A program made the position numbers and the translations under genes. Below, piece after piece: positions 11,805 through 26,966 of a stretch of 58,538 nucleotides of DNA. Numbering within the stretch: position 1 is the first letter of the stretch; each line of letters opens with the position of its first letter. Source of the stretch: Sphingorhabdus sp. EL138. Lineage in GTDB: Bacteria; Pseudomonadota; Alphaproteobacteria; Sphingomonadales; Sphingomonadaceae. The stretch is taken from contig NZ_CAMCWY010000019.1 of the NCBI RefSeq assembly GCF_945882965.1, positions 1 through 58,538 on the forward strand, given 5' to 3'. Under the pieces are notes generated by a model. The model did no database searches, was not told where the DNA came from, and was given only the letters and a program-made list of their open reading frames with translations.

Positions 11805-12194
11805 CTAGCTGCGCTGCGTCGGCTTTCCAAAGGCATTATATGCTACACCAAGCAGCGCGATCATGACTGCTTCAGCTATAATCGGCGGGACTGTCGTCGG
11901 TGCAGTCCCATCGAGCGCGATGCTGACGAAACGCCCGAGAAGCGCAAATGTGAGAAGCGTCAGTGGCACCATTAGGGGGGCCCGCTCTGCGCGCCACGCA
12001 CCGATCAGCGAAAAGATAGCCCCTGTCAGAAAGAAGGCGGGGAAGTCGGCGCGCATCGTCGCCATTCCCTGCGTCCCTAGCGGAGAAAGCGCAAATTCAG
12101 CTGCCATTTTCGTCGGATTGAACAGGAAACTCAAACCAATAACGATATTCAAAAGACCAACGAGGCCAATGACAAACTGCATTATTCTTTTCAT
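11805..12194 (-). CDS. DUF4345-like four-helix membrane protein
   Basis: 129 residues from the ATG at 12194, which has GAGGA upstream; an earlier ATG at 12227 lacks one. Four hydrophobic segments: VIGLVGLLNIVIGLSFLFNP, ADFPAFFLTGAIFSLIGAW, LMVPLTLLTFALLGRFVS and IIAEAVMIALLGVAYNAFG. Short proteins with this layout are annotated as DUF4345 in proteobacteria; function unknown. It is divergent from the MBL hydrolase gene and shares with it the palindromic operator at 12252-12270, so it may belong to the same regulon. Confidence 0.6.
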   Translation of the reverse strand: MKRIMQFVIGLVGLLNIVIGLSFLFNPTKMAAEFALSPLGTQGMATMRADFPAFFLTGAIFSLIGAWRAERAPLMVPLTLLTFALLGRFVSIALDGTAPTTVPPIIAEAVMIALLGVAYNAFGKPTQRS

Positions 12195-12251: not shown

Positions 12252-12270
12252 ATGGCATTGATAATGTCAT
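12252..12270. promoter_or_regulatory. Operator site 1 of the sulfatase/dehalogenase regulon
   Basis: Near-palindrome ATGGCATTGATAATGTCAT between divergent genes. It matches 15 of 19 positions of the complement of site 2 (19624-19642) and shares the arms of site 3 (21255-21273). Confidence 0.6.
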
Positions 12271-12316
12271 TAGATTGCGTCAAACAGGATGACAAGACAA
12301 ATAGGGGAGGATATTT

Positions 12317-13405
12317 ATGCGCACGCGCACCAAGATAGTGTTGGGGGTTGCCGCGCTGGCATTGATAGCGGGCATCACTGTCAAAACGCAGCAAGCGGCT
12401 ATAGCCACTGCTCTGTTCGAGCGCGCCGTGGGCGAACGCGTTGGCCGCGATACGACCGCAGCCTTACCCGATGGCCTCCACATCGCGCTGTGCGGAACTG
12501 GCTCGCCCCTCCCCAGCCCCAGCCGTGCCGGTCCATGTAATGTTGTGATCGCGGGCAAGCAAATCTTCGTCGTTGATATTGGCGAGGGCGGCGGGCGCAA
12601 CATCAACATGATAGGCATCCCTACAGGAAAGATCGCGGGCGTTTTGCTCACCCATTTCCATTCGGACCATATTGACGGCATGGGTCCATTGATGATGACC
12701 CGATGGGTAAGTGGCACGAACATAAGCCCGCTGCCCGTGCATGGGCCAAAGGGCGTAGAAGCTGTGGTCGCTGGCTTCAACGCCGCTTACACCATGGATA
12801 ATGGCTATCGCACTGGCCACCATGGTGTCGCTATCGCCCCGCCAGGCGGCGCAGGTGGCATAGCCATGCCCTTCACCGTTCCCCAAGCGGGCAACAGCAA
12901 CAATGTGGTCGTGCTGGACAAAGACGGACTTAGAATCACCGCGTTCCGCGTCGATCATGGCCCGGTTGAACCGTCGGTTGGCTACCGCTTCGACTATAAG
13001 GGCCGTTCTATCGTGATCAGCGGCGATACCAAAAAATCCGCATCGCTCATCGCCGCGTCAAAGGACGCAGACCTGTTGGTGCATGAAGCGTTGCAGCCAA
13101 AGCTGGTCAAGATGATAACCGCAGGACTGGAGAAAAAGGGCCTCAAGAATCTGGCGCAGATCACCCACGATATCCTCAATTATCATGCCAGCCCCGAAGA
13201 AGCCGCCAAGTCCGCAAAGGAAGCGGGCGTCAAGCAACTGGTGCTCAGCCATATTGTCCCTGCAATCCCGTCCAAATTCTTCTACCCCGCTTTTCTGGGC
13301 GACGCAGCCAAGCTTTATGGTGGGCCGATTGTGGTGGGCGAAGACGGCATGATCTTCACATTACCAGCAGGCAAAAGCGGGATTACCCAAGACAATTTAA
13401 TGTAA
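12317..13405 (+). CDS. MBL-fold hydrolase, RNase Z / type II arylsulfatase-like
   Basis: 362 residues with GGGAGG 7 nt upstream. An N-terminal signal or anchor (TKIVLGVAALALIAGITV) puts it outside the cytoplasm, which argues against a tRNA-processing role. The metallo-beta-lactamase motif is THFHSDHIDG (about 113-122). Further ligands are likely in ISGDTKKS (the Asp), VHEALQ and LSHIVP (the final His). The overall layout follows the RNase Z-like branch, which includes the secreted alkyl/aryl sulfatases typified by Pseudoalteromonas AtsA. Its position before a GST, two classical sulfatases and an FGE supports a sulfatase or phosphodiesterase role, but this remains inference. Confidence 0.7.
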   Translation: MRTRTKIVLGVAALALIAGITVKTQQAAIATALFERAVGERVGRDTTAALPDGLHIALCGTGSPLPSPSRAGPCNVVIAGKQIFVVDIGEGGGRNINMIGIPTGKIAGVLLTHFHSDHIDGMGPLMMTRWVSGTNISPLPVHGPKGVEAVVAGFNAAYTMDNGYRTGHHGVAIAPPGGAGGIAMPFTVPQAGNSNNVVVLDKDGLRITAFRVDHGPVEPSVGYRFDYKGRSIVISGDTKKSASLIAASKDADLLVHEALQPKLVKMITAGLEKKGLKNLAQITHDILNYHASPEEAAKSAKEAGVKQLVLSHIVPAIPSKFFYPAFLGDAAKLYGGPIVVGEDGMIFTLPAGKSGITQDNLM

Positions 13406-13417
13406 GGCGCCCCCCGA

Positions 13418-14425
13418 ATGTACGCAATTAACGGAGCGCTGGGCTCACCCTATTCAATGAAGATGCGCGCGCTCATGCGGTATCGGCGCATTCCGCATAT
13501 GTGGGTGCACGGCGCAGAATCGCGGGATGCACTCAGCAAGGTCAAGGCACCTGTCATTCCCGTGCTGGAATATCCCGACGGGACATTTCACAATGATTCA
13601 ACCCCGCTCATCTATGATCTGGAGGCGCGGCACACCGAACGCTCAGTTATCCCGTCCGATCCGGCACACGCATTCATCGCGCATCTGATTGAGGATTTCG
13701 CGGACGAGTGGGTGACAAAGGCAATGTTTGGCTATCGCTGGCTGGAGGAAGTGGACCAGATCCAAATGAGCCGCTGGCTCGCTTTTGACGCGATGAAGGG
13801 CGGCGGGCTGGCGATCAGCCAAGGCTTTGCCGAACATTTCCGCGCGCGTCAGGTCGGCCGCATGGCGATTGTCGGCTGCACGGCTGAAAACTTCCCGCTG
13901 ATTGAGGCCTCGACCCGCGCGATCCTAAGTGCGCTGGAGGCGCATGTAGTGGATAAACACTGCCTATTCGGCACACGGCCCAGCATAGCGGAATTCGGGA
14001 TGTATGGGCAATTGTCCCAGCTTGGCGTTGATCCAACTGCACAGGCGATGATGCGCAAAGATTTTCCCTATAGTTTCCGATGGCTGCTCCATATTGACGA
14101 CATGTCGGGAATCACCGGGGAATGGGATACCGAGATCGCAGGTGCCGATGCGCCCTTTGCGCCGATTATCACCGCGTGGCTGAAACAGGTGGGCAAAATC
14201 TATATGCCCTTCCTCCTTGCCAACGCCGCCGGGATAGAAGCGGGAGATGAAACATTCAGCATCACGGCCATGGGCCTGCCCTACACGCAAGGCGTGTTCA
14301 AATATCAGGTAAAGTGCCTCGCCGATTTGCGCGCGCGCTATGCCACTTTGGATAATGCCGCGCGGGCGAAGGTCGATCCGCTGCTGGCAGAGGCGGGCTG
14401 CCTTGATGCTTTGCTGAGCCAATGA
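13418..14425 (+). CDS. Glutathione S-transferase family protein
   Basis: 335 residues, longer than a usual bacterial GST (200-230). The N-terminal thioredoxin-like domain starts MYAINGALGSPYSMKMRAL and contains the APVIPVLEYPDG cis-Pro element and DSTPLIYDLEARH. The C-terminal helical domain is extended by about 100 residues. The gene starts 12 nt after the MBL gene and its TGA overlaps the sulfatase ATG, so it is operonic. GSTs can dehalogenate or open epoxides, which would suit the neighbouring haloalkane dehalogenases. The catalytic residue is not certain (Ser11 or Tyr12 in GSPYS). Confidence 0.7.
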   Translation: MYAINGALGSPYSMKMRALMRYRRIPHMWVHGAESRDALSKVKAPVIPVLEYPDGTFHNDSTPLIYDLEARHTERSVIPSDPAHAFIAHLIEDFADEWVTKAMFGYRWLEEVDQIQMSRWLAFDAMKGGGLAISQGFAEHFRARQVGRMAIVGCTAENFPLIEASTRAILSALEAHVVDKHCLFGTRPSIAEFGMYGQLSQLGVDPTAQAMMRKDFPYSFRWLLHIDDMSGITGEWDTEIAGADAPFAPIITAWLKQVGKIYMPFLLANAAGIEAGDETFSITAMGLPYTQGVFKYQVKCLADLRARYATLDNAARAKVDPLLAEAGCLDALLSQ

Positions 14426-16212
14426 CCCTGAAGGGACTGGCAACTTTATGGATAGCGTTGGCGTTGCTCGGCCCGGCAACGCCGGGCGCGCAAGCGGCAC
14501 CAAAGAAGCGCCCCAATATTGTCATCCTCCTTGCCGATGATTGGGGCTTTAGCGATGTCGGGGCATTCGGCGGCGAAATTGCGACACCCAATATCGACGC
14601 GCTTGCCGCCAAGGGTGTGCGTTTTTCAAACTTCCATGTGGCTGGATCCTGCTCACCAACGCGCGCGATGCTGCAAACGGGCGTGATCAACCACCGCGCT
14701 GGTCTGGGCAATATGCCCGAGACAATTCCACCGGAACATCTGGGCAAACCTGGCTATGAAGCGCAACTCAACAACCGCGTGGTAACCATTGCTGACCAGC
14801 TACGCGCGGGTGGCTATCGCACCTATCTGACGGGGAAATGGCATCTGGGGCACACGCCCGATACCGTGCCGACGGCGCGCGGCTATGATCGGGCGCTGGC
14901 GCTAGCGCAATCGGGCGCGGACAATTTTGAAGATAAACCCAATCTGCTGATTTACGACAAGACCGAATGGAGTGAGGATGGAAAGCCCGCAAAACTGCCG
15001 AAGCGCTTTTACTCCTCAACCCTGATTATCGACAGGATGATCCGCTATATCGACAGCGACAGGGCAAGCGGAAAGCCTTTTTTGGCATCCGTCAATTTCA
15101 TCGCTAACCATATTCCGGTGCAGGCACGCGATGCTGATATTGCGGCTTATGCCGGGCGCTACACAGATGGCTGGAGTGCACTGCGCACCCAACGCCGCGC
15201 CGCTGCGGTCGCCAAAGGCGTAATGCCCGCAGGTGTTGCAATGGTAACCATGGACAGCAGCGGTGACTGGTCGAAATTGTCGGCACAGCAGCGCCAGCAA
15301 CGTGCAGGTGCAATGGCCGCTTATGCGGGCATGGGCACAGCGATGGACCGCGAAATCGGCCGATTAATTGCGCACCTAAAGGCCATCGGCGCATATGAAA
15401 ACACCATCTTTGTATTTCTGTCTGACAATGGCGCGGAAGCCACTGATCCCATGAACATGGGCGCATTCGCGCGCTGGAACGCCAATCAACTCTATGATCA
15501 AAGTATCGGCCAACAGGGACGCCCGGGTTCGCTGACCGCGCAAGGTGCAGGGTTTGCGAGCGCATCGGTCTCCCCGCTGCGTGGATATAAGTTTACAGCG
15601 AACGAAGGTGGCTTGCGTGTTCCGATGATTATAGCCTGGCCGGGCAACCCCGCGATCAAGGGTGGCAGCGTTGCAACAGGTTTTGCCCATGTCACCGATA
15701 TGCCGCTGACGTTGCTGAACCTCGTCGGGGTCACGCCGCAGCAAGGCAGCTTCTCCGGACGCCGCGTCGAGCCAATGACTGGGATGGACCTAACGCCTTT
15801 GCTCACCGGGTCTGCAGTGTCCGTCCATGCGGCAGACAAGCCTTTGGGGTATGAATTGTCCGGCAATGCGGTGTTGTTCAAAGGCGATTACAAGCTCGTC
15901 AAGAACCTGCCGCCTTATGGAGATGGCCGCTGGCGGCTGTACAACATCACCACCGACCCCGGCGAAACCAACGATCTGTCAGGTTCCGACCCGAAACGTT
16001 TTGTTGCCATGCAAGAGGATTATGCCGCGTTTGCCAAGGCAAATAACGTGCTGCCGATGCCAGACGGGTACACCGCGCCCAAACAGATTTTCGCCAACGC
16101 CCTGCGCACATTGCTGATCCCACGACTTATCGCGTTGTGGCCAGTGGGCGCGCTATTGGTTATGGCAACAGCCGCCGCAATCTGGTGGCGCAGACGGCGC
16201 GCTACACGGTGA
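14422..16212 (+). CDS. Arylsulfatase (type I, formylglycine), C-terminally anchored
   Basis: 596 residues. A Sec signal peptide ends near GAQA-AP (about residue 25). The alkaline-phosphatase-fold core begins with PNIVILLADDWGFSDVG (metal-binding DD) and carries the sulfatase signature CSPTRAMLQTG, where the Cys is converted to formylglycine. Later motifs are TGKWHLGH and FLSDNGAEATDP. The C-terminus has a hydrophobic helix (LIALWPVGALLVMATAAAIW) followed by RRRRATR, so the mature enzyme is probably held in the inner membrane facing the periplasm. Substrate unknown. It requires the FGE encoded at 19658-20572. Its ATG overlaps the GST stop (ATGA). Confidence 0.88.
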   Translation: MTLKGLATLWIALALLGPATPGAQAAPKKRPNIVILLADDWGFSDVGAFGGEIATPNIDALAAKGVRFSNFHVAGSCSPTRAMLQTGVINHRAGLGNMPETIPPEHLGKPGYEAQLNNRVVTIADQLRAGGYRTYLTGKWHLGHTPDTVPTARGYDRALALAQSGADNFEDKPNLLIYDKTEWSEDGKPAKLPKRFYSSTLIIDRMIRYIDSDRASGKPFLASVNFIANHIPVQARDADIAAYAGRYTDGWSALRTQRRAAAVAKGVMPAGVAMVTMDSSGDWSKLSAQQRQQRAGAMAAYAGMGTAMDREIGRLIAHLKAIGAYENTIFVFLSDNGAEATDPMNMGAFARWNANQLYDQSIGQQGRPGSLTAQGAGFASASVSPLRGYKFTANEGGLRVPMIIAWPGNPAIKGGSVATGFAHVTDMPLTLLNLVGVTPQQGSFSGRRVEPMTGMDLTPLLTGSAVSVHAADKPLGYELSGNAVLFKGDYKLVKNLPPYGDGRWRLYNITTDPGETNDLSGSDPKRFVAMQEDYAAFAKANNVLPMPDGYTAPKQIFANALRTLLIPRLIALWPVGALLVMATAAAIWWRRRRATR

Positions 16213-17450
16213 AGGGCTATTGGCCCAGTCCCTGGCCCTGCGAGGACGGCGGTCCTCGCCGGTTACAGTCAACGCCGGATCCCCTGGCCCTGGCAGAACC
16301 TTCCAGTCTGCGGCTCGCGGCGACCTCGCGGCGCCGATTGATGACGACGATGACCGTGCTAGGCGATCCGGGGGAGATTTTTCTGCTTACCCATCAGGCG
16401 CTGCGAGCACAGATCGGACTGCCTACCACCGCGCAGGTCGAGCGTATCGATCCGTTGACGCTGCGCCCTCTCGCACGCAGCCCGCGCCTCAACGGCGGCC
16501 CGATGTGGCCGGGCGGGATGGCCATTCACCGTAATGGCGATCTTTACACCGTCTATGGGCGCTACATCCATCGCCTAACCCGCGCAGATCTAACTGTCCG
16601 CGCAGCAGCCAGATTACCGGTCGATCAGCCCTACAACAGTTTCGTGATCCTCAATTCCGGGTTGATTGTAACGAAGAATCTCTCCCTTCACTCCACAGCG
16701 CAACTTTGCGTGATTGATCCGGACGATTTGACCATGGTCTGCCCGCCACTTGATTGCGCCGAGCCATCGGTGGCGCGGCTCACCTCCGTTGGCAATACCG
16801 TCTATGTCGTGGGTGTGCGTACAGTGACCCGCTATCATTGGGATGGCACTGCCCTGCGGCGTGACGATAGCTGGGTCTGCCCCTATATCGGCAACAGCCA
16901 GCGTAGCCACGGCTGGGATGCGGTGATCGGGGACCGTCACCTATGGCTGATGGACAATGGCCAGCATCGTTATCGCACAAGCATGGTCGGGCGCGGCGTT
17001 GCGCAGGCACCCAATCGGCTCATCCGCGTAGCACTTGCAGACGCTGACGACTGGCAGTGCATCGACGTCAGCGGTTTGCCGGGTGGCAGCATCACCAACC
17101 CGCCGATCTGGGACGAAGCAAGGCAGATCGTCATCGCATATGACAGCGCCAATCGCGTCATCTGCGGCTTCCGCTTCGAGGAAGAGAAGCGCGCGCTCGT
17201 ACCTCTGTGGAGGCAAGATGGTTTGGGCTGCGCCAGCCATATGCTGCATTTCCCTGAAAGTGGCCTAATTTGTACCAATGATTATCAGAGCCGCGAAGCA
17301 GTCGTCCTGCTCGATATCTCCAGCGGAGCGACGGTTGCGCGAGTCGAAACAAGTGGGCTCATGCAAGGCGTGGTGTTTCCGTCACCCGGCTGGAACCAAG
17401 ATTTCTATTGGTGCTCGATGGACCAAGTGACGCGGATCGCATTTACGTGA
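16209..17450 (+). CDS. Hypothetical beta-propeller-like protein coupled to the sulfatase
   Basis: 413 residues. The GTG at 16209 overlaps the sulfatase stop (GTGA), and the frame has no better start until an ATG about 45 codons later (MTTMTVLGDPGEIF). The protein is almost all short beta-strands with repeated GD/DD turns (GGMAIHRNGDLYTVYGRYIH; VGNTVYVVGVRTVTRYHWDG; SHGWDAVIGDRHLWLMDNGQ). This suggests a six- or seven-bladed propeller such as those of SMP-30-like or NHL proteins. No signal peptide is visible, so it is either cytoplasmic or its true start is misjudged. Function unknown; the tight coupling implies a role with the sulfatase, perhaps substrate binding or lactone hydrolysis. Confidence 0.6.
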   Translation: MKGYWPSPWPCEDGGPRRLQSTPDPLALAEPSSLRLAATSRRRLMTTMTVLGDPGEIFLLTHQALRAQIGLPTTAQVERIDPLTLRPLARSPRLNGGPMWPGGMAIHRNGDLYTVYGRYIHRLTRADLTVRAAARLPVDQPYNSFVILNSGLIVTKNLSLHSTAQLCVIDPDDLTMVCPPLDCAEPSVARLTSVGNTVYVVGVRTVTRYHWDGTALRRDDSWVCPYIGNSQRSHGWDAVIGDRHLWLMDNGQHRYRTSMVGRGVAQAPNRLIRVALADADDWQCIDVSGLPGGSITNPPIWDEARQIVIAYDSANRVICGFRFEEEKRALVPLWRQDGLGCASHMLHFPESGLICTNDYQSREAVVLLDISSGATVARVETSGLMQGVVFPSPGWNQDFYWCSMDQVTRIAFT

Positions 17451-17488
17451 TCCGCGCCGCTGAAGAATAGCCTGGCATGTTCGAGACT

Positions 17489-17755
17489 TAGGGTCAGGAC
17501 CTATTAAATCCACCTTCGCGGTTTGAGGCCATTTTGTCCAGTGCAAGGCGGCAAGCGCAGGACTTAGTGGTTCTAAGTCCAAGCTTGCCAACGTGGCCAT
17601 GGACAAAATGGGTCAAATCCGAAGGACGCCAAAATTGCTTTGATCTCGAAACAAAATACCCTTGCAGGCAGAATGACTGCCCGCAGCGGACATTTTGCTC
17701 CGATATCTTTGCCATTTTGACGCCGCGAAGGTGGATTTAATAGGTCCTGACCCTA
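17489..17755. repeat. MITE-like element with 33-bp perfect terminal repeats
   Basis: 267 bp bounded by a perfect 33-bp inverted repeat (17489-17521 and 17723-17755) starting TAGGGTCAGGACCTATTAAA. The outermost TA is present at both ends, as for TA-targeting IS630/Tc1-type elements. The inside has no gene but further inverted repeats (CCATTTTGTCCA...TGGACAAAATGG; GGACTTAG...CTAAGTCC), so a transcript would fold strongly. It lies between two convergent genes and may also serve as a bidirectional terminator. Single ends of the same repeat occur at 28331 and 30882. Confidence 0.8.
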
Positions 17756-17790
17756 GGCATATGACGGTAAAGCGCATCACTGTGCGAGGT

Positions 17791-18705
17791 TTACCCGCCG
17801 GTCATCACCTGCGCTGCGATGAAATTTTGGATCAGCTCGACAAGCTGTTCGGGCTGATCTTCCTGACAGAAATGGCTGGCGTCAATCCGGCAATGTGGCT
17901 GCCCCTTCGCGCCGGGAATGCGGCGTTGAATTTCCGCATCGAGATGACCCAGCACCTTATCCTGACTGCCAAAGCAGGTGAGCACTGGTTTTTCAAAACG
18001 TTCAAGCTGTGCCCAAGCGGCGACGTTTTCCGCAACCGAGAGATGGTCAGGGGTCACAGGCACGAGCAAAGGAAATTGGCGCGCGCCGGCCTTAAAACTC
18101 TCATCTGGGAATGGCGCATCATAGGCGGCGATCTCGGCGCTGGTCAGTGCGCGATTACAGCCACCATTAACAATCCGACCGCTCTTAAACTCGGGCGTGG
18201 CCTGGCTGAATGCGCACCAAGCATCGAAGCCTGGACCAATGTTGTCGCCAACGGGCAGATAGGTGTTTGAAATCACCAGCCGCGCAAAACGTTCTGGAAA
18301 GGCCGCCACCAGTCGCAGCCCAATCAACCCACCCCAATCCTGACAAAACAGCGTGATGTTGTGCAGATCAAGCTGCGTCAGCCAGTCGCTCATCCACGCA
18401 ACATGGCGTTCATAGCTATAATCGTCACCACTGGCAGGCTTGTCAGACTTGCCAAAGCCGATCAAATCAGGGGCCAGCACCCGATGGCCAGAGGCAGCGA
18501 GCGAGGGCACAAATTTGCGGTAGAGATAGGACCAAGTCGGCTCTCCATGAAGCAGCAGGATCGGCGCAGCGTCGCGGGGGCCTTCATCGACATAATGAAG
18601 CCGCAAGGGTTGCGTATTTTGTGCATCAACCTCAAGATAGTGTGCAGCGAAGGGATAGTCCGAAAGGTCGGCGAAAGCGGCTTCCGGGGTTCGCAAGACC
18701 TTCAT
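17791..18705 (-). CDS. Haloalkane dehalogenase (HLD-I-like)
   Basis: 304 residues, alpha/beta-hydrolase fold. Nucleophile Asp and halide-binding Trp are in LFCQDWGGLIG; oxyanion/halide residues in LLHGEPTWSYLYR; the third acid in CFGSQDKVLGH (aligned with the Asp of DhlA-type enzymes); catalytic His in DASHFCQED. The Asp nucleophile separates it from epoxide hydrolases with a Tyr-containing cap and from Ser esterases. It hydrolyses carbon-halogen bonds by family inference; some members act on unknown natural substrates. It starts 2 nt after the stop of the paralogue at 18708-19598, and both follow operator site 2. Confidence 0.8.
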   Translation of the reverse strand: MKVLRTPEAAFADLSDYPFAAHYLEVDAQNTQPLRLHYVDEGPRDAAPILLLHGEPTWSYLYRKFVPSLAASGHRVLAPDLIGFGKSDKPASGDDYSYERHVAWMSDWLTQLDLHNITLFCQDWGGLIGLRLVAAFPERFARLVISNTYLPVGDNIGPGFDAWCAFSQATPEFKSGRIVNGGCNRALTSAEIAAYDAPFPDESFKAGARQFPLLVPVTPDHLSVAENVAAWAQLERFEKPVLTCFGSQDKVLGHLDAEIQRRIPGAKGQPHCRIDASHFCQEDQPEQLVELIQNFIAAQVMTGG

Positions 18706-18707
18706 GG

Positions 18708-19598
18708 CTATCTCACTTTTAGGATGCAGTCGACGAAGCCTTGCGGGTCATTTTCCTGAATGAAGTGACCGCCTTTTAACGTGCAATGCGGCTGGCCCGC
18801 AGTGCCGGGAACACGGCCGATGAAACGGCTCTCGCCGCCGCGCGTGACGGGGTCACCATCGCTGAAGCAGCACAGGAATGGCTTTTCCCATTGCTCAAAC
18901 ACTTGCCATGCGCGCTTCTGATCGGGGATCGCGATATTATTTTCAAACGGAACGAAGCTGGGGAATATCCGCGCTCCGGCCTTATAGCTGCTGTCGGGGA
19001 ACGGCGCGTCATAAGCGGCGATCTCGGCAGCGCTGAGTGCGCGCTTTGCCCCGGCGTTGACGATTCTGCCGATCGGAAAAAACGGGCTCCATTGGGAAAA
19101 GGCGCGCCAAATGGCAAAAGCGCGCGGTGCCGGGCCGCCTTCGGGCAAGCCGCCATTGGACAGGACGACGCTGGCAAAGCGATCTGGCATTTCTGCGACA
19201 AGGCGCAGGCCGATTAGCGACCCCCAATCCTGACAGACGAGCGTCATGTTGCTCAGGTCAAGCGCCTCGATCCACTGACGCATCCAGCCAACATGGCGAG
19301 CATAGCTATAGTCGGTTTTTTTGGTTGGCTTGTCAGATTTACCAAAGCCAATCAGGTCAGGCGCGATAACGCGATAGCCTGCCGCAACGACCGGGCCAAT
19401 CATATGGCGATACAGATAGCTCCAGCTTGGCTCACCATGCATCATCAGCACCACCGGCGCATCGCGCGGCCCTTCATCCACATAATGCACGCGCAATGCT
19501 GTGCCGTCCGAGGGATCGGCAATCTCCACATAATTTGGCGCAAAAGGAAAATCGTGGATATCGGCAAAGGCGCTATCGGGTGTGCGAAGGACTTTCAA
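18708..19598 (-). CDS. Haloalkane dehalogenase paralogue (HLD-I-like)
   Basis: 296 residues and clearly homologous to the next gene (same start MKVLRTP, HGEPSWSYLYR, LIGFGKSDKP). Catalytic set: Asp-Trp in LVCQDWGSLIG, acid in CFSDGDPVTRG, His in LKGGHFIQEND. The cap differs (AIWRAFSQWSPFFPIGRIVN), so substrate range may differ from its tandem partner. No signal peptide, so cytoplasmic. The ATG lies about 20 nt from a -10 box (complement of 19618-19623) and the adjacent operator site 2, so this gene leads the two-gene operon. Confidence 0.8.
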   Translation of the reverse strand: MKVLRTPDSAFADIHDFPFAPNYVEIADPSDGTALRVHYVDEGPRDAPVVLMMHGEPSWSYLYRHMIGPVVAAGYRVIAPDLIGFGKSDKPTKKTDYSYARHVGWMRQWIEALDLSNMTLVCQDWGSLIGLRLVAEMPDRFASVVLSNGGLPEGGPAPRAFAIWRAFSQWSPFFPIGRIVNAGAKRALSAAEIAAYDAPFPDSSYKAGARIFPSFVPFENNIAIPDQKRAWQVFEQWEKPFLCCFSDGDPVTRGGESRFIGRVPGTAGQPHCTLKGGHFIQENDPQGFVDCILKVR

Positions 19599-19617
19599 AA
19601 ATTAACCCCTAAAACAA

Positions 19618-19642
19618 ATTATATTGACACTTTAAATGCCAT
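19618..19642 (-). promoter_or_regulatory. Dehalogenase promoter with operator site 2
   Basis: On the minus strand ATGGCATTTAAAGTGTCAA (19624-19642) is immediately followed by TATAAT (19618-19623). The 19-bp near-palindrome would cover the region just upstream of the -10 box, as expected for repression. It matches sites 1 and 3. Confidence 0.6.
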
Positions 19643-19657
19643 ATTATGAAAGGCGGG

Positions 19658-20572
19658 TCAAGGAGTCGGTCCAACCTTCTTCATATCCACCAGCCGGAAC
19701 CCGATATGGTCGGTCCCCAGCCCGCGTTCCTGAAACTGACGCGCGGCGGGACGATAACGCGCGCAATAATTGGCGGCGCAAAGGTAAGATCCGCCTTTGA
19801 TGACATTAACCTCCTCGCTGGCATCGGCGCGCGCGCCGCTGGCGCTCGTCCATTCCCACACATTACCGATCATATCGTACAGACCAAATCCGTTGGGTTT
19901 AAAACAGCCCACAGGGGCGCGTCCGACATAGCCGTCGGTGTTCAGGTTTTTCACCGGAAAGACGCCTTGATAATAATTAGCTTGCGGTCGGCCCTGCGCA
20001 TCAACTGGCTCCGGCAAAGCCGCCGCGCCGCCACGCGCGGCATATTCCCACTGCGCTTCACTCGGCAATTCTTTGCCCGCCCATGTCGCATAAGCCTCTG
20101 CATCCTGATAGGCGATCTGGACAACAGGTTCGCGGTCTCGCCCGACGATGCTCTCTTTCTGCCCGGAAGGATGTCGCCATTGCGCGCCCGGCACCCAGCG
20201 CCACCACCGCGGGTCAGCGTCCGACGGGACATTGAACACAGCAGAACCCGGAACCAGCATGTCTGGCGGTGCATTGGGCAGCTTGGGCGGATCGCGCTCC
20301 GCTATGGTCTTGTAACCAGTCGCCTGTACAAAGGCCGCAAATTCGGCGTTGGTGACCTCATTTGCATCGATCCAGAATCCCTTGACCTTCACGGTCTGCG
20401 GCGGGCCTTCCTCCGGGTAATGGGGATCATCACCCATCACGAAACTACCGCCGGGCACCCAGACCATATTGTTACCCGACAGGCCAGTGCATACTGTTTC
20501 GGGCGGCCCAGATGCATCGGTGCAGCCAGACAGCGCTAAAACCAGACCCAGAGCAAGACCGAAGCGTTGCAT
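19658..20572 (-). CDS. Formylglycine-generating enzyme (FGE/SUMF1 family), lipoprotein form
   Basis: 304 residues from the ATG at 20572, which shares bases with the TetR stop (TGATG). An N-terminal lipobox (LALSGC, Cys about 17) predicts export and lipid anchoring. The FGE-sulfatase domain has WVPGGSFVMG, LPSEAQWEYAARGG, GNVWEWTS and the active-site segment GGSYLCAANYCARYRPAARQ. That segment keeps both Cys residues of the copper-binding pair, which many 'SUMF1-domain' proteins lack. It should oxidise the Cys of CSPTR/CSPSR in the two nearby sulfatases. An exported FGE is unusual for bacteria. Confidence 0.82.
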   Translation of the reverse strand: MQRFGLALGLVLALSGCTDASGPPETVCTGLSGNNMVWVPGGSFVMGDDPHYPEEGPPQTVKVKGFWIDANEVTNAEFAAFVQATGYKTIAERDPPKLPNAPPDMLVPGSAVFNVPSDADPRWWRWVPGAQWRHPSGQKESIVGRDREPVVQIAYQDAEAYATWAGKELPSEAQWEYAARGGAAALPEPVDAQGRPQANYYQGVFPVKNLNTDGYVGRAPVGCFKPNGFGLYDMIGNVWEWTSASGARADASEEVNVIKGGSYLCAANYCARYRPAARQFQERGLGTDHIGFRLVDMKKVGPTP

Positions 20573-21192
20573 CAATCCTCCGGCATGGCGGCAATAGCAT
20601 CGCCCAGCAAACGCCGCACGACAGCCTTGGCATCGTCAACAGGCAGTTCCTGATCATGCCGTAACAGTCGCCAAGTCTGGAAACTCAATATGACATTAAG
20701 ACCATGGGCCCCCGCCACATCGGCCTTCACCATCGCGGGTAAATACGCCTCAATGGTATCAGTTTCGAGCCGCAGCATCCGGCGATAGTCTTGCATCAGA
20801 TAGGGCGACTGGAAACGTTTAAGATTGGCTGAAATCCGATAAGGCAAAATGGTTTCGAAAACCACCGCCCGACGATCCGCGATGTCGAACAGCTTTGCCT
20901 GCCAAGTAGCGCCCGTTGGCGGCTGCAGGATGATGGGCATCACCTGCGCCTCAATCACCTCGCCCATTTCACGGTACAACCCATCCATATCGTCAAAGTG
21001 TCGGAAAACCGAGCGGAGCCCGACGCCTGCCACCTCCGCAACACGCGCAGCGCTGGGGGCGACTTCGCCCTTGCCCACCAGGTCGAGCAAAGCAGCGACG
21101 ATCTTTGAGCGGCTAGACCGGCTGCGCTCGCGGCGACCATCGGCGTGCTGCGCTGTCAGGCGAGCTGTCATTTTGTGCGATACATTGGCCAT
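20572..21192 (-). CDS. TetR-family regulator, probable regulator of the cluster
   Basis: 206 residues from the ATG at 21192; longer in-frame extension upstream would run through the divergent promoter and is rejected. N-terminal helix-turn-helix: RSKIVAALLDLVGKGEVAPS then VAEVAGVGLRSVFRHFDDMD. The C-terminal ligand domain is all-helical (ILPYRISANLKRFQSPYLMQ). It forms an operon with FGE (TGATG overlap) and is divergent from the secreted Cys-rich gene; operator site 3 lies in between. Autoregulation and control of sites 1 and 2 are inferred from the shared motif. Confidence 0.8.
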   Translation of the reverse strand: MANVSHKMTARLTAQHADGRRERSRSSRSKIVAALLDLVGKGEVAPSAARVAEVAGVGLRSVFRHFDDMDGLYREMGEVIEAQVMPIILQPPTGATWQAKLFDIADRRAVVFETILPYRISANLKRFQSPYLMQDYRRMLRLETDTIEAYLPAMVKADVAGAHGLNVILSFQTWRLLRHDQELPVDDAKAVVRRLLGDAIAAMPED

Positions 21193-21254
21193 GCGTTCTA
21201 GCCTTGCGGCAAAAAGACCCGCGCGCAAGCCACAAAAGCGATTGCAAATATATT

Positions 21255-21273
21255 TTGGCACAATTAATGCCAA
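21255..21273. promoter_or_regulatory. Operator site 3 between TetR and divergent operon
   Basis: Near-perfect palindrome TTGGCACAATTAATGCCAA with 6-bp perfect outer arms and a 7-bp centre. It sits between the TetR gene and the 21314 operon, the classic TetR autoregulatory position, and matches sites 1 and 2. Confidence 0.65.
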
Positions 21274-21313: not shown

Positions 21314-21565
21314 ATGTCGAAAAATATGCTCATTTTGACGGCGTCGGCACTGCTGCTGTCTGCTACACAGCTGTCAGCGCAAGACAATGTGCGCGAAGCG
21401 TGCATGCCGGATATCCGCAAATACTGCTCTGCAGAATTGGGCACTTTTAGCCGCGAAAAAGTCCGCGCCTGCCTCATCAAAAATATCAAAAAAACGTCAC
21501 CCGCCTGTCAAGCGGCAGCAAAGGCGCGGCGCGATGCCGAGCGCGCCACAAAGAAAGGCAGTTAG
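21314..21565 (+). CDS. Small secreted cysteine-rich-repeat protein
   Basis: 83 residues. A signal peptide (MLILTASALLLSATQLSAQ) is followed by one unit of the cysteine-rich repeat known from Golgi apparatus protein 1 and its bacterial relatives: C-MPDIRKYC-(17)-ACL-(11)-C. The tail is basic (ARRDAERATKKGS). It is exported to the periplasm, probably with two disulfides. It is the first gene of the plus-strand operon behind operator site 3. Function unknown; a copper or substrate-binding role beside the FGE is speculation. Confidence 0.7.
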   Translation: MSKNMLILTASALLLSATQLSAQDNVREACMPDIRKYCSAELGTFSREKVRACLIKNIKKTSPACQAAAKARRDAERATKKGS

Positions 21566-21569
21566 AGCC

Positions 21570-22199
21570 ATGACTATTTGGATAATCTGGGGCACGGCGC
21601 TGCTCGCTTATGGCGTATTTCGTCTCTGGTATGACAACTGGTCCGACCCACTCAAGCCTGCCGAAATTGATGCGTTTCTTGCGCAAATGGCAGGGCGTTT
21701 TAAGGGCACAGGAAATAGCGCCGATGTTATGCGTGCCTTCCTCGAAGCCGATGATGGCCGCGAGTTTGTCATGCTCAATCTGGTCAAAGCGCAGATGGAG
21801 CAGGTTGAGGACCCCAAAACGGGGCAAATGGTTCAAGGTTTTGATCTGCTCAAGCGCTATTCGAAACGCTTCATGCCGGTTCTGTTCCGCACTGGCGGTC
21901 ATCCCGGCATGGTCGGACGCAAGGTTGGCGGATATATCGATGCGTGGAACACCGAGGCGGACCCCGACTGGACGATCTTTGGCCTGATGCGGTACCGCAG
22001 CCGCCGCGACATGATGAAGCTGGTGATGAATCCTGCGTTTATGGAAGGCCATCCGGATAAGCTGCTTGGCACTTTGGCGACCTTCTCCTTCCCGACACAG
22101 CGGGTGGTGTCCTTTTATGTAAGCCCACGCGTGACGGTTGCGCTGGTGCTGGCGTTGATCGCAGCCCTCAGCCATATCGCCCTGCTGACATTTGGCTGA
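21570..22199 (+). CDS. Membrane-anchored DUF1330/ABM-like protein
   Basis: 209 residues, starting 4 nt after the previous stop. An N-terminal helix (IWIIWGTALLAYGVFRLW) and a C-terminal helix (VTVALVLALIAALSHIALLT) flank a soluble domain. That domain has GREFVMLNLVKAQ, GGHPGMVGRKVGG and WTIFGLMRYRSRRDMMKLVM, a pattern like DUF1330/dimeric alpha-beta-barrel proteins ('FVMLNLVKF...VGR...VRYPSR..F..M'). Such domains bind or isomerise small molecules. Function here is unknown. Confidence 0.6.
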   Translation: MTIWIIWGTALLAYGVFRLWYDNWSDPLKPAEIDAFLAQMAGRFKGTGNSADVMRAFLEADDGREFVMLNLVKAQMEQVEDPKTGQMVQGFDLLKRYSKRFMPVLFRTGGHPGMVGRKVGGYIDAWNTEADPDWTIFGLMRYRSRRDMMKLVMNPAFMEGHPDKLLGTLATFSFPTQRVVSFYVSPRVTVALVLALIAALSHIALLTFG

Positions 22200-22594
22200 T
22201 GACATTACGGACGCAGGAACGTCACTGGGCTCTCTGGACCCGGCAGCGTTGGATGCGGCTTGCCACGGTCAACGCGCTCCTCTCCACCATCGCGCTTATG
22301 CTCTCGGCCTATGCGCCTGAACCTGTGGCGCCAATCGTCCGGATCGGTGCCCAAGTCCAGTTCATGCACAGCATGGCTAGCATCGCTTGTGCCACATTCA
22401 TGAATGTCGGCGCAGACGCCGCGCGCCACGCGCCGGCCTTTCTCCTTGGCGGATCGCTTTTGTTTGCGGTGCATCATTATGGCGCAGCAGCCGGCCTTTG
22501 GGGGTTGGCCAATGGGTTGATCGGTTTTGCCGCGGTCATGATGGCAAGTGGCTGGATGATCATGCTCGCAGCCGGGCGGAATATCGATACGTAA
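22199..22594 (+). CDS. Hypothetical four-helix membrane protein (DUF423-like)
   Basis: 131 residues. The ATG shares one base with the upstream stop. Hydrophobic helices lie at about 20-40, 52-72, 78-95 and 100-125; the HSMASIACATFMN and FLLGGSLLFAVHHYGA segments resemble DUF423 small membrane proteins. No catalytic motif. It is operonic with the genes on both sides. Confidence 0.5.
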   Translation: MTLRTQERHWALWTRQRWMRLATVNALLSTIALMLSAYAPEPVAPIVRIGAQVQFMHSMASIACATFMNVGADAARHAPAFLLGGSLLFAVHHYGAAAGLWGLANGLIGFAAVMMASGWMIMLAAGRNIDT

Positions 22595-22619
22595 AGTAGA
22601 GATGGGGGAGACATTGGAG

Positions 22620-23078
22620 ATGCGCACCATTCTGCCGCCGAGCACAAATAACCAATATCGTGGTTCCCGCTACGCCGCGTGGTTTTTGGCCGCTTATGGC
22701 ATTGGCTGGATCATACCGGGGATGATCCACAGTTTCCTGCCCGATGGTGGTGCGGGTGTTATCGCAGGGCTTGATCTCAGCCATAATCCAACGTTGATCT
22801 TTAGCATGTTTGCCTGGGCTGGCGCGACACAGATTGCACATGGCATAGTCACGCTGGCGGTCGCGTTGCGTTACCGCGCGCTGGTGCCGCTGTTTCTTAT
22901 TGTGTCTTTCATCGAGCGCCTATTGCTTAGCTGGTCGGGCTGGATAAATCATGCGCCAGTCAGCGGCCATCACCCGCCCGAACACTATGTTAGCCTGATT
23001 TCGCTACCGATAATTCTGCTATTTCTGTGGCTGTCCGTGCGGCAATCACGTCAAACCCAACCGGAGAGCCCAGCATGA
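22620..23078 (+). CDS. Hypothetical four-helix membrane protein
   Basis: 152 residues from the ATG at 22620, which has GGGGGAG 9 nt upstream; the ATG at 22602 lacks a good site. Helices: AAWFLAAYGIGWIIPGMIHS, PTLIFSMFAWAGATQIAHGI, LVPLFLIVSFIERLLLSW and VSLISLPIILLFLWLSV. Its TGA overlaps the start of the second sulfatase (ATGA), so the two are translationally coupled. Family not recognised. Confidence 0.55.
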   Translation: MRTILPPSTNNQYRGSRYAAWFLAAYGIGWIIPGMIHSFLPDGGAGVIAGLDLSHNPTLIFSMFAWAGATQIAHGIVTLAVALRYRALVPLFLIVSFIERLLLSWSGWINHAPVSGHHPPEHYVSLISLPIILLFLWLSVRQSRQTQPESPA

Positions 23079-24703
23079 AAAAATGGATATGGATCGGGGC
23101 ATTAATGCTGTTGATCGGCGCGGGCTATTTGGGTTTTCAGCAGTATAAAATCTATCTGCCCGGCATCATTGGTGAATGGCGTGAACCCATTGCCGAAAAC
23201 CGTCCCGTTGCATGGGCGCAGGGTCCTGCGGTGGCACCATCGGGCGAACGTCCGCCTAATGTCATCCTGATTGTCGCCGATGATCTGGGGATGAACGACA
23301 TTTCGCTGTACGGTGGCGGCGTTGCCGGAGGCGCGGTGCCGACCCCCAATATCGATTCCATTGCCAAACAGGGCGTCAGCTTTGCCAATGGCTATGCCGC
23401 CAATGCCACCTGCTCGCCGTCGCGCGCGGCCTTAATGACCGGGCGTTATCCAACACGGTTCGGTTTTGAATTTACCGCTGTTCCAGCGGCTTTTGTTTCA
23501 AGCCTGGCGCACACGAATGGGAATTCACCTTATCCAACCATCTATCATAAAGAGCTTAACCACGACCTGCCGGCCTATGCCGATATGGGGGTGCCCAATG
23601 CGGAGATCATGTTGCCTGAGGTGCTGAAAGCCAAGGGGTATCATAACATCCACATCGGCAAATGGCATTTGGGTGAGGCCAAGCCATTGCGGCCAACGTC
23701 ACAGGGTTTTGACGAAAGCATTGGTATGCGTTCCGGCGGCGATTTGTTCATGGCCGAAGATGACCCGCAAGTCGTCAATGCAAAGCTGCCATGGGACCCG
23801 ATTGACCGCTTTTTATGGGCAAATCTGCCCTATGCCGTCTATTGGGGGAACAGTCAGCGTTTTCGCCCCAAAGGCCATCTGACCGACTATTTCACTGACA
23901 ATGCATTGGCCGCGATTGACGCGAACAAGAACCGGCCCTTCTTCATGTATCTCGCCTATAATGCCCCGCACACCCCGTTGCAGGCGCTGAAATCGGATTA
24001 TGACGCCCTGCCGCAGATCACGGATCATACGCAGCGCGTCTATGGCGCGATGATGCGCCAACTCGACCGGCGGATTGGCGATGTGTTGCAAAAACTGAAG
24101 GACACCGGCCTCGACAACAATACTTTGGTTATCTTTACCAGCGACAATGGCGGCGCGTGGTACACAGGTATAAAGGACCACAACACACCCTATCGCGGGT
24201 ATAAAGGCACCTTTTTTGAAGGCGGCATTCACGTGCCGATGCTGATGCGCTGGCCGGGCAGAATCGCGCCGGGTACCGTGCGCAATGACGTGGCCCAGCA
24301 TCTGGATATGTTTGCAACAATTGCAGCGGCAACGGGCGCAAGCCTGCCCACTGATCGCAAGATGGACAGCTTCAACCTGCTTGGCACTGGGCCAAAACGC
24401 GACATCACCTTCTGGCGTTCGGGCCATTACCGCGTTGTCCGCGCAGGGGACTGGAAATTGCAGATTTCTAAACGTCCCGAAAAGGCATGGCTGTTCAACC
24501 TTGCCACCGATCCAACCGAGCAAGTCAATTTGGCCGCTAAAGACCCCGCGCGCGTGGCGGAACTTCGCAAGTTAATCGAAGCCCAAAATGCCGGACTTCC
24601 CCAACCGCTATGGCCCGGCTTACTCGAAGGCGCGATCCGCATCGATGTGCCGCTCAATGCCCAATGGAAGAAGAATCAGGTATATGTCTATTGGGCCAAC
24701 TGA
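23075..24703 (+). CDS. Sulfatase (type I, formylglycine), N-terminally anchored
   Basis: 542 residues. An N-terminal hydrophobic segment (WIWIGALMLLIGAGYLGF) without a clear cleavage site acts as membrane anchor. Core motifs: PPNVILIVADDLGMNDIS, signature CSPSRAALMTGRYPTRFG (formylglycine Cys about residue 110), HIGKWHLGEA, VIFTSDNGGAWY. Sulfatases with this signature hydrolyse aryl, steroid or glycan sulfate esters in the periplasm; the substrate is not predictable. It is the last gene of the operon from 21314. It has different anchoring and only distant similarity to the sulfatase at 14422. Confidence 0.88.
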   Translation: MKKWIWIGALMLLIGAGYLGFQQYKIYLPGIIGEWREPIAENRPVAWAQGPAVAPSGERPPNVILIVADDLGMNDISLYGGGVAGGAVPTPNIDSIAKQGVSFANGYAANATCSPSRAALMTGRYPTRFGFEFTAVPAAFVSSLAHTNGNSPYPTIYHKELNHDLPAYADMGVPNAEIMLPEVLKAKGYHNIHIGKWHLGEAKPLRPTSQGFDESIGMRSGGDLFMAEDDPQVVNAKLPWDPIDRFLWANLPYAVYWGNSQRFRPKGHLTDYFTDNALAAIDANKNRPFFMYLAYNAPHTPLQALKSDYDALPQITDHTQRVYGAMMRQLDRRIGDVLQKLKDTGLDNNTLVIFTSDNGGAWYTGIKDHNTPYRGYKGTFFEGGIHVPMLMRWPGRIAPGTVRNDVAQHLDMFATIAAATGASLPTDRKMDSFNLLGTGPKRDITFWRSGHYRVVRAGDWKLQISKRPEKAWLFNLATDPTEQVNLAAKDPARVAELRKLIEAQNAGLPQPLWPGLLEGAIRIDVPLNAQWKKNQVYVYWAN

Positions 24704-25298
24704 TCGCGTAGGGATGCGCGGGCGCAAAGAACGGGTTGGGCGCGCCGGTTACCTTCATTCTTAATATGGTTCACGCAGGAGTCGAAGGCGGCCGGAGGCC
24801 AGCCCCGGAGGACGTAGAATATTGCCCTACCCGTCGTCCTAAAACACCGTCGCACCAGCGGAGGCTGGTCCCCATCACGTATGTCTGGGGAGACCGACGG
24901 GCGAGATAGGCCCCAGCCTGCGCTGGGGCGACGATGGCAACTATGGTGACAGGTGGGTTATGCCCTCAATAGCTTCACCTATCGCCTTTTTTCCCAAAAC
25001 TCTGCGTCATTCCCGCCTGTGCGGGAATGACGACGGGTGAAAAGTCAAGCTAAGCGAATTACAGCGGCACGTGCGTCAACCCCCAATAGGTATGCCGCAT
25101 TAGTTGGACGCAATTGCAACCACGAAAACCCCACCAACACGCCCACCAACACAGTCTCGACTTTGCCCCTACCCAACGGCTATGGTGTTGGCATGCTTAC
25201 ACACACCCAATCTGCAATCGTCCTTTTGTCCGGCGGTATTTTTACCAACAGTCTGACGCGCGCGCAGCGTGGGGTTGCGGCGGCACTGGAGCCCATAT
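24704..25298. repeat. Intergenic region with several short palindromic repeats
   Basis: 595 bp with no convincing gene. It holds three REP-like units: CGCACCAGCGGAGGCTGGTC (24851-24870), CCCCAGCCTGCGCTGGGGCG (24911-24930) and a perfect 11-bp hairpin GTCATTCCCGC-ctgt-GCGGGAATGAC (25006-25031). Such units are typical dispersed intergenic repeats and may terminate the sulfatase operon. Confidence 0.6.
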
Positions 25299-26966
25299 AT
25301 GCCCCTGATTGAGGCCGCAGATTATATCATCGTCGGCGCAGGGTCGGCTGGGTGCGTGTTGGCGGATCGGTTAAGTGCCGATGGCACGCATAACGTCCTG
25401 GTGCTGGAATATGGGGGCAGTGACCGCTCCGTGTTGATTCAGATGCCCGCCGCGCTTGCCTACCCCATGAACACCAAAAGGTGGAATTGGGGCTATGAAA
25501 GCGAGCCGGAGCCGCATTTGAACAACCGACGCCTGAACTGCCCACGCGGTAAGGGGTTGGGGGGTTCTTCCTCGATTAACGGCCTTGTCTATGTGCGCGG
25601 CAATGCGCTCGATTTTGAACATTGGAAAGAAGAGGAAGGCGCAACCGGATGGGGCTATGCCGATGTGCTGCCTTATTTCAAACGCGCCGAGGGCCGGGCC
25701 GAAGGTGGGGACGAATATCGCGGCGGCTATGGCCCGTTGTCGACCAGCTATGGCCCGCTCGACAATCCGCTGCATCACGCTTGGCTCGATGCGGCGCAGC
25801 AAGCGGGCTATAGCCTGACCGAGGATTATAACGGCTATGCCCAAGAAGGCTTTGGCCGGATGGACATGACGGTGCGGGACGGCACGCGCTGTTCGGCGGC
25901 GAAGGCCTATTTGTATGACGCCCGCAAACGCCCCAACCTCAAAGTCATACAAAAGGCATTGGCCACGCGCATCCTGTTTGACGGCACGCGCGCCATTGGG
26001 GTGGAGTATGAACGCGCAGGCCAAATGCATAAGGTGCACGCGGCCCGCGAAGTCATCCTGTCGGGCGGTCCCATCAATTCGGTTCAGCTGCTGAAGCTTT
26101 CCGGCATTGGCCCCGCCGAGGAGTTGAAAGCGCATGGCATAGACGTGCGCGCGGACAGGCCAGGTGTGGGCGCAAACCTGCAAGATCATCTGGAATTCTA
26201 TTTCCAAATGGCCTGTACGCAGCCAATAACTTTATACGGCAAGGCAAATCTTCTCGGTAAATTTATGGTCGGTGCCCAATGGCTATTGGGTCGGTCGGGC
26301 TTAGGGGCGTCAAACCAGTTTGAAAGCTGCGGCTTTATCCGCAGCCGCGCCGGTATAAAATATCCCGATATCCAATATCATTTCTTTCCCATGGCTATCA
26401 ATTATGATGGATCGTCGTTGGCGTCCGAACATGGTTTTCAGGCCCATGTTGGCCCCATGCGGTCCAAAAGCCGGGGCACCGTGACGCTCAAAAGCGCGGA
26501 CCCGCATGACAAGCCCAAAATCCTGTTCAATTATATGAGCCATCCCGACGATTGGGCAGACATGCGGGCCTGCGTGCGGCTGACGCGGGAGATTTTTCAA
26601 CAGCCCGCCTTTGCGCCCTTTCGCGGACGTGAAATTCAACCCGGCGCGGACATTGTCACCGATGCGCAGATTGACGCCTTCATTGCCGAACATGTCGAAA
26701 GCGCGCTGCACCCCAGTTGCACATGCAAGATGGGCAGTCCACGTGACCCGATGGCCGTGGTCGACCCCGAATTGCGTGTCATCAGTGTCCAAGGGCTGCG
26801 CGTCGTGGATAGCGGCGTGATGCCAACCATCACCACGGGCAACCTAAATGCGCCGACGATCATGATCGGTGAAAAGGCGGCCGATCATATCCTTGGTAAG
26901 CCTATGCTCGCCCCGTCTAATGCGCCATTTTACGTCGCGCCAAATTGGGATATTGCGCAAAGATGA
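25299..26966 (+). CDS. GMC-family FAD oxidoreductase (choline/alcohol dehydrogenase type)
   Basis: 555 residues from the ATG at 25299 (GGAG about 8 nt upstream), where the FAD motif [18 protein letters not shown] begins within 10 residues. GMC signature 1: [20 protein letters not shown]. Signature 2: [18 protein letters not shown]. Catalytic His in [10 protein letters not shown], and the C-terminal Asn in [16 protein letters not shown]. It resembles BetA/AlkJ-type dehydrogenases that oxidise primary alcohols to aldehydes with a membrane quinone acceptor. Context suggests it oxidises an alcohol released by desulfation or dehalogenation. Stop and start overlap the next gene (ATGA). Confidence 0.85.

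Follow-up and report, generated by a model that had tools for sequence, protein, structure and literature searches.

Are sulfatases, the enzyme that matures them and haloalkane dehalogenases switched on together in a sphingomonad, and if so by which regulator? The question is raised by a gene cluster on a 58,538-nucleotide stretch of Sphingorhabdus sp. EL138 (contig NZ_CAMCWY010000019.1, analysed in full and called the window below), which holds three near-palindromic 19-bp sites and a gene for a TetR-type regulator at 20572–21192. Judging from sequence comparison, we consider it very probable that the three dyads are operators of this TetR, acting as an autoregulated repressor of three neighbouring transcription units. 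The predicted targets are best read as two formylglycine sulfatases (SulfA and SulfB), their formylglycine-generating enzyme (FGE), two haloalkane dehalogenases (HLD1 and HLD2), a glutathione S-transferase (GST) and a metallo-beta-lactamase (MBL)-fold hydrolase (Table 1). As a system type this is an ordinary TetR regulon; the combination of enzymes, the membership and the breadth are its interesting part.

The near-palindromes at 12252–12270, 19624–19642 and 21255–21273 had been singled out in an original prediction made from the window's letters, and all three are present with the sequences given there. Site 1 lies between the DUF4345 and MBL genes, as claimed, and site 2 is indeed abutted by a TATAAT box (19618–19623, minus strand). 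Their common layout is a symmetric 19-bp dyad, WTGRCAY-N5-RTGYCAW. The consensus put forward in the prediction, itself derived from the three sites, matches the genome without mismatch at exactly these three places. A symmetric pattern that we shaped on the window sites together with related ones, WTGRCAYNNNNNRTGYCAW, finds three places in the window when one mismatch is allowed, and all three are exact; at the same setting, shuffled windows give 0.74 matches on average and at least three in 4 of 100 shuffles. On their own, three dyads in 58.5 kb are moderate evidence against chance. Across the 2.36-Mb genome the symmetric pattern occurs exactly at six places, and the three outside the window cluster (C6, C11 and C20) all fall within mechanically listed open reading frames (ORFs), of 405, 315 and 335 codons. 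The many unrelated genomic matches that the prediction had named as a reason for doubt were thus not seen. We claim no additional regulon members elsewhere in the genome; these three matches and a near-match at C26:5381 overlap ORFs.

The sites are conserved in place and sequence. A TetR orthologue (E < 1e-80) is present in 22 of the 45 genus genomes, that of the window included. We fetched 80 loci by TetR, the closest of them titled Sphingorhabdus or Sphingomonadales; some of these loci probably duplicate genomes of the genus set and all are related, so that the following counts are not independent. In the nearest 24 loci (L066–L087, L098 and L124), allowing at most one half-site mismatch, a site stands upstream of tetR in 24/24, centred 72 bp from the gene in 19, and upstream of HLD1 in 22/22, at 34–38 bp. 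GST, in the site-1 operon, is preceded by a site in 11 of 14. Locus L079, from S. rigui DSM 29050, carries counterparts of the full set of three. The same scan found none upstream of HLD2, an internal operon gene (0/9), and random 250-bp windows contained such a site in 113 of 2400 cases. Half-sites average 1.8–1.9 bits at tetR and 1.8 bits at HLD1; with flanks of 0.5 (left) and 1.4 (right) bits at tetR and of 1.3 and 0.8 bits at HLD1, one flank at each appears fairly conserved as well. Absence of the sites from orthologous clusters, which the original prediction had said would tell against it, was therefore not observed: place and sequence are kept, and 27 of the 56 loci described next hold exact copies. 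As a separate observation, 23 of the nearest loci, some of whose contigs are short, gave no tblastn match to the MBL gene, and L084 gave a single 28% match elsewhere. In nearest loci without MBL the operator directly precedes GST, and MBL copies of 60–63% identity stand at operators in the more distant sphingomonads L106, L107 and L109.

The remaining 56 loci, a distant set of 0.91 Mb, hold 40 exact dyads, compared with a mean of about 0.25 for 60 permuted half-site dyads (0.22 genic and 0.03 intergenic). For 28 of the 40, a gene from a window-cluster family (tetR, HLD, sulfatase, FGE, GST, MBL or Cys-rich) begins no more than 300 bp away. The 12 others have as neighbours only families seen repeatedly at these loci, namely DSBA-like, TonB-dependent receptor, DUF1330-like and DUF2855. 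None of the 40 falls within the genes that a tblastn search with the window proteins picked out. Going by their titles, the bearers of the site are Hyphomonadaceae (Henriciella and Aquidulcibacter among them), Parvibaculum, Phenylobacterium, more sphingomonads, other Alphaproteobacteria and a Comamonadaceae locus (L120). Looser sites, at GST|MBL or tetR, occur in gammaproteobacterial and actinobacterial loci. Neighbouring genes in the 56 loci, on contigs of unequal length, comprise sulfatase in 25, FGE in 19, HLD in 13, GST in 31 and MBL in 20, with none of the five in 13. Four of the distant sphingomonad loci carry a pair of operator-like sites, spaced 25 bp apart, in front of a gene for a TonB-dependent receptor (L106 and L107, 3455–3498; L112, 3564–3607; L131, 3359–3402). 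Each pair includes at least one exact site, which suggests that uptake may belong to the regulon in these organisms.

These counts bear on the idea that the dyads are chance palindromes or transcription terminators, the probability of which we regard as negligible. At least three matches did arise in 4 of the 100 window shuffles, and site 3 was listed as terminator-like. Chance was nevertheless rejected on the distant-locus counts (40 versus 0.25) together with the positional conservation in the nearest loci (24/24 at tetR and 22/22 at HLD1). That conservation also outweighs the terminator-like listing of site 3; moreover, the genes on either side of sites 1 and 3 are divergent, and terminator-like sites in the region do not exceed those of shuffles (9 versus 11.8).

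Since the distant loci were selected by TetR, dependence on TetR needed separate tests, for which we used site counts in the family and the comparison of HLD1 relatives. Exact sites average 5.1 in the 22 genus genomes with a TetR orthologue and 2.2 in the 23 without (p = 9.6e-7), a difference of about three sites. The family comparison covered 199 genomes: in 16 the TetR is at least 45% identical, 17 have a 34–43% relative only and 166 have none; the first group averages 4.1 sites and the last 1.0 (p = 1.9e-9), and the excess persists when the window's own genus is left out (p = 9e-8). All 33 TetR genomes pooled average 2.6 sites (p = 5e-6). Among 30 HLD1 relatives of the genus, the site is present in 22/22 TetR genomes, with both half-sites exact and 29–38 bp upstream, and in 1/8 without TetR (Fisher p = 3.9e-6); restricted to copies of at least 77% identity, the ratio is 22/22 to 1/4 (p = 0.0015). 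In G029 and G033, which lack TetR, the same place retains ATGACAC and the other half is off at two of six positions, which we read as a probable decayed operator. Upstream of the HLD1 relative in L204 and L205, from genomes without the TetR, stands a site with one intact half and the other off at two of six positions.

Several points weigh against this interpretation. The compared genomes are related, and their p-values overstate independence. The 45% identity cut was set post hoc, with the identities already seen, and the 17 genomes with a 34–43% relative show no excess (mean 1.2 sites, p = 0.24). Of the seven HLD1 relatives without a site, four are just 66–69% identical, which makes their orthology doubtful. 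G036 has an HLD1 with an intact site and no detected TetR; 244 bp separate the start of this HLD1 from the end of its contig, and the assembly consists of 580 contigs and is 7% contaminated. The distant set, besides having been chosen by TetR, carries the exact site in only the 27 loci mentioned and within 250 bp upstream of tetR in 10, and a crude gene caller places 10 of the 40 dyads inside ORFs. Finally, the GST site is missing in L080, L083 and L084.

In the sequence of the regulator itself, TetR_N (PF00440) matches at E 0.0014 and 18.8 bits, below the cut-off of 24. Its AlphaFold2 model (pLDDT 91.7) is confident and has the all-helical TetR fold, with 10 helices. The 50 Foldseek matches listed are all transcriptional regulators, many titled TetR (probability 1.00, E 6.9e-4 to 0.016), with modest TM-scores of 0.46–0.65 against TetR-type regulators; those without TetR in the title presumably belong to the family too. 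Within the helix-turn-helix (HTH), R60, V62, F63, R64 and F66, all located in the third predicted helix, are invariant across 62 TetRs with identities down to 26%. TetR-family proteins of the TetR, AcrR, QacR, FadR and KstR types govern local, autoregulated regulons. The present protein resembles them in its predicted all-helical fold and in the palindrome that stands at its own divergent promoters and at neighbouring operons. It differs in that PDB sequences match it at E 0.0011 at best and that NCBIfam yields no match at E 0.001. Paper searches over titles and the beginnings of abstracts, with subscription journals mostly outside their reach, returned neither this operator and its target set nor a paper linking a haloalkane dehalogenase with a sulfatase and a TetR.

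Co-occurrence and the nearly invariant recognition helix together support a link between this TetR and the sites. That the dyads are true operators of another transcription factor, encoded elsewhere, seems to us very unlikely. Such a factor would account for the site in G036 and for the many distant TetR loci without an exact site beside tetR, and binding by TetR is itself inferred. On the other side stand the site counts, which follow TetR orthologues in both genus and family, the HLD1 relatives of genomes without TetR, most of which have no site, and the near-invariance of the recognition helix that accompanies the conserved site.

If TetR is the cognate regulator, its dimer would sit across or beside the promoters of three units and would repress all of them, its own included. 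Site 1 would control DUF4345 and, divergently, MBL-GST-SulfA-p437; site 2 would control HLD1-HLD2; and site 3 would control tetR-FGE and, divergently, CysR-p209-p131-p158-SulfB. Inside these runs, neighbouring genes overlap or stand no more than 12 bases apart, so the three sites head runs that cover the genes from 11.8 to 24.7 kb. The pairing of tetR with FGE, part of the original prediction, is borne out by a 1-base overlap of the two genes, which would form one transcription unit. We expect TetR to be released by a small molecule, probably the substrate itself or a product formed early, upon which the sulfatases, the maturing FGE, the dehalogenases and GST would be made together. The larger claim of that prediction, that desulfation, dehalogenation and FGE genes belong to one regulon, is largely supported by site conservation and by co-occurrence with this TetR.

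The operators have an AT-rich, −10-like sequence beside them and start codons close by, an arrangement in keeping with a self-regulating repressor that bars RNA polymerase. Against this, a promoter scan of the region found none at the sites (7 in all, versus a shuffle mean of 5.9), so that repression is argued from position alone. An exact −35/−10 assignment was abandoned: a conserved TTGACC near HLD1 shares bases with the stop codon of FGE, and the scan was blank at the sites. The same lack of a clear −35/−10 pair could be expected of activator-dependent promoters, and TetR might bind the sites as an activator or dual regulator. We consider this quite unlikely, as most TetR proteins are repressors and a dimer bound beside the −10-like sequence, about 35 bp from the HLD1 start, should block RNA polymerase.

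Table 1. Features of the predicted regulon, in order of position in the window
Feature	Position	Strand	Remarks
DUF4345 protein	11805..12194	-	PF14248, 32.8 bits
Operator site 1 (predicted)	12252..12270	none	Between DUF4345 (-) and MBL-GST-SulfA (+); GST counterpart in 11/14 related loci
MBL-fold hydrolase	12317..13405	+	PF12706, 63 bits; nearest solved chain by sequence 8gyg, 89 bits, labelled arylsulfatase
Glutathione S-transferase-like protein (GST)	13418..14425	+	PF13417, 42 bits
Sulfatase A (SulfA)	14422..16212	+	CSPTR formylglycine motif; PF00884, 184 bits; 1hdh arylsulfatase, 359 bits
p437, conserved 437-aa protein	16137..17450	+	Overlaps SulfA end; copies 88-94% identical in L069, L070, L073, L076, L080
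Haloalkane dehalogenase HLD2	17791..18705	-	NCBIfam PRK00870, 458 bits; PDB 5esr, 397 bits
Haloalkane dehalogenase HLD1, subfamily-I type	18708..19598	-	NCBIfam PRK00870, 437 bits; PDB 5esr, 389 bits; D124-W125, H278
Operator site 2 (predicted)	19624..19642	none	Upstream of HLD1-HLD2 (-); counterpart in 22/22 related loci
Formylglycine-generating enzyme (FGE)	19658..20572	-	PF03781, 244 bits; PDB FGE matches; lipoprotein-like N-terminus; active-site Cys pair
TetR-type regulator, 206 aa	20572..21192	-	HTH VGLRSVFRHFDD; AlphaFold2 pLDDT 91.7; HTH conserved in 62 relatives
Operator site 3 (predicted)	21255..21273	none	Between tetR-FGE (-) and Cys-rich/p209/p131/p158/SulfB run (+); counterpart in 24/24 related loci
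Small Cys-rich protein (CysR)	21314..21565	+	PF00839, 23.8 bits (cut-off 22)
p209	21570..22199	+	No Pfam match; adjoins this TetR also in Hyphomonadaceae-type loci
p131, small protein	22199..22594	+	Sub-threshold DUF423 match only
p158, small conserved protein	22602..23078	+	No Pfam match; relatives found
Sulfatase B (SulfB)	23027..24703	+	CSPSR formylglycine motif; PF00884, 196 bits; 6prm S1 sulfatase, 258 bits

The enzymes at the heart of the cluster are well recognisable. SulfA and SulfB carry the CxPxR motif of S1 formylglycine sulfatases (as CSPTR and CSPSR) and FGE its cysteine pair, GGSYLCAANYCARYR, as in known S1 sulfatase/FGE systems, from which the cluster differs in that these genes apparently share one TetR switch with dehalogenases. 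HLD1 and HLD2 score above the PRK00870 cut-off, and their nearest solved chain, 5esr (which we take to be DccA of Caulobacter), is matched over nearly the full length. HLD2, like HLD1, keeps an Asp-Trp motif and a His (D123-W124 and H278), presumably the nucleophile motif and the catalytic histidine of both. Candidates for the second, cap-domain halide-stabilising Trp are W164 in HLD1 and W163 in HLD2, where the alignment of HLD2 to 1b6g is gapped. Solved haloalkane dehalogenases of the subfamily I type include 5esr, 4mj3, 6f9o, 2xt0 and 1b6g. Both proteins share the near full-length match, the Asp-Trp motif and the His with known subfamily I dehalogenases such as 5esr, and differ from them by lying in a probable sulfatase/FGE regulon. 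The MBL protein may be a further, unrelated sulfatase, a lead that comes from its 8gyg match; the literature search turned up no paper on 8gyg.

That one switch governs them suggests a simultaneous need for desulfation, maturation of sulfatases, dehalogenation and glutathione chemistry. A single substrate carrying a sulfate ester and an alkyl halide would account for such a need. One could imagine a dedicated pathway for natural compounds, such as algal chlorosulfolipids, in which sulfate esters occur together with carbon-halogen bonds, an idea that we hold only tentatively and think unlikely to be right. On this scheme the two formylglycine sulfatases, and perhaps the MBL-fold one, might desulfate the substrate and the two HLDs and GST might dehalogenate it hydrolytically, a division of labour no less doubtful than the pathway itself. 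Co-switched TonB-dependent uptake in some other sphingomonads would, just as speculatively, complete it. Chlorosulfolipids were first described from a freshwater chrysophyte and have recently been detected in the Pacific (PMC13413282). Several facts count against a substrate with both groups: carrageenan sulfatases are among the nearest solved relatives of SulfB, HLD is found in just 13 of the 56 distant loci, and a review favours natural chloroalkanes as HLD substrates, with 1-chloro-n-alkanes as a likely one (PMC6299022). Bacterial degradation of chlorosulfolipids did not turn up in the literature searches, which covered titles and the beginnings of abstracts, and this also tells against that choice of substrate. 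A looser regulon for detoxification or for mixed exudates is at least as likely as the dedicated sulfate-and-halogen pathway.

The biological role of haloalkane dehalogenases has been called poorly understood (PMC10619424). A dedicated pathway, if true, would give those of subfamily I a natural role. The conserved operator that joins HLDs to sulfatases and FGE offers a testable route to the natural substrate by way of the TetR inducer, and the motif can be used to seek further regulon members. The same site accompanies similar genes in related bacteria, and this may aid the search for what these dehalogenases do in nature.

Some features of the surroundings remain to be described. p437, which matches no Pfam family and nothing significant in the PDB, probably starts downstream of its listed start. 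In Hyphomonadaceae-type loci (L089–L093 and L095–L097) the tetR unit, with p209 in most, lies near PUCC- and DUF3623-family genes and, in most, GH92. Even with one mismatch allowed, the window scan showed no such operator before the genes at 25269–28327. These encode a GMC oxidoreductase and an FAD-dependent oxidoreductase, follow SulfB after a 565-bp gap and are also found near the cluster in L066, L068 and L070.

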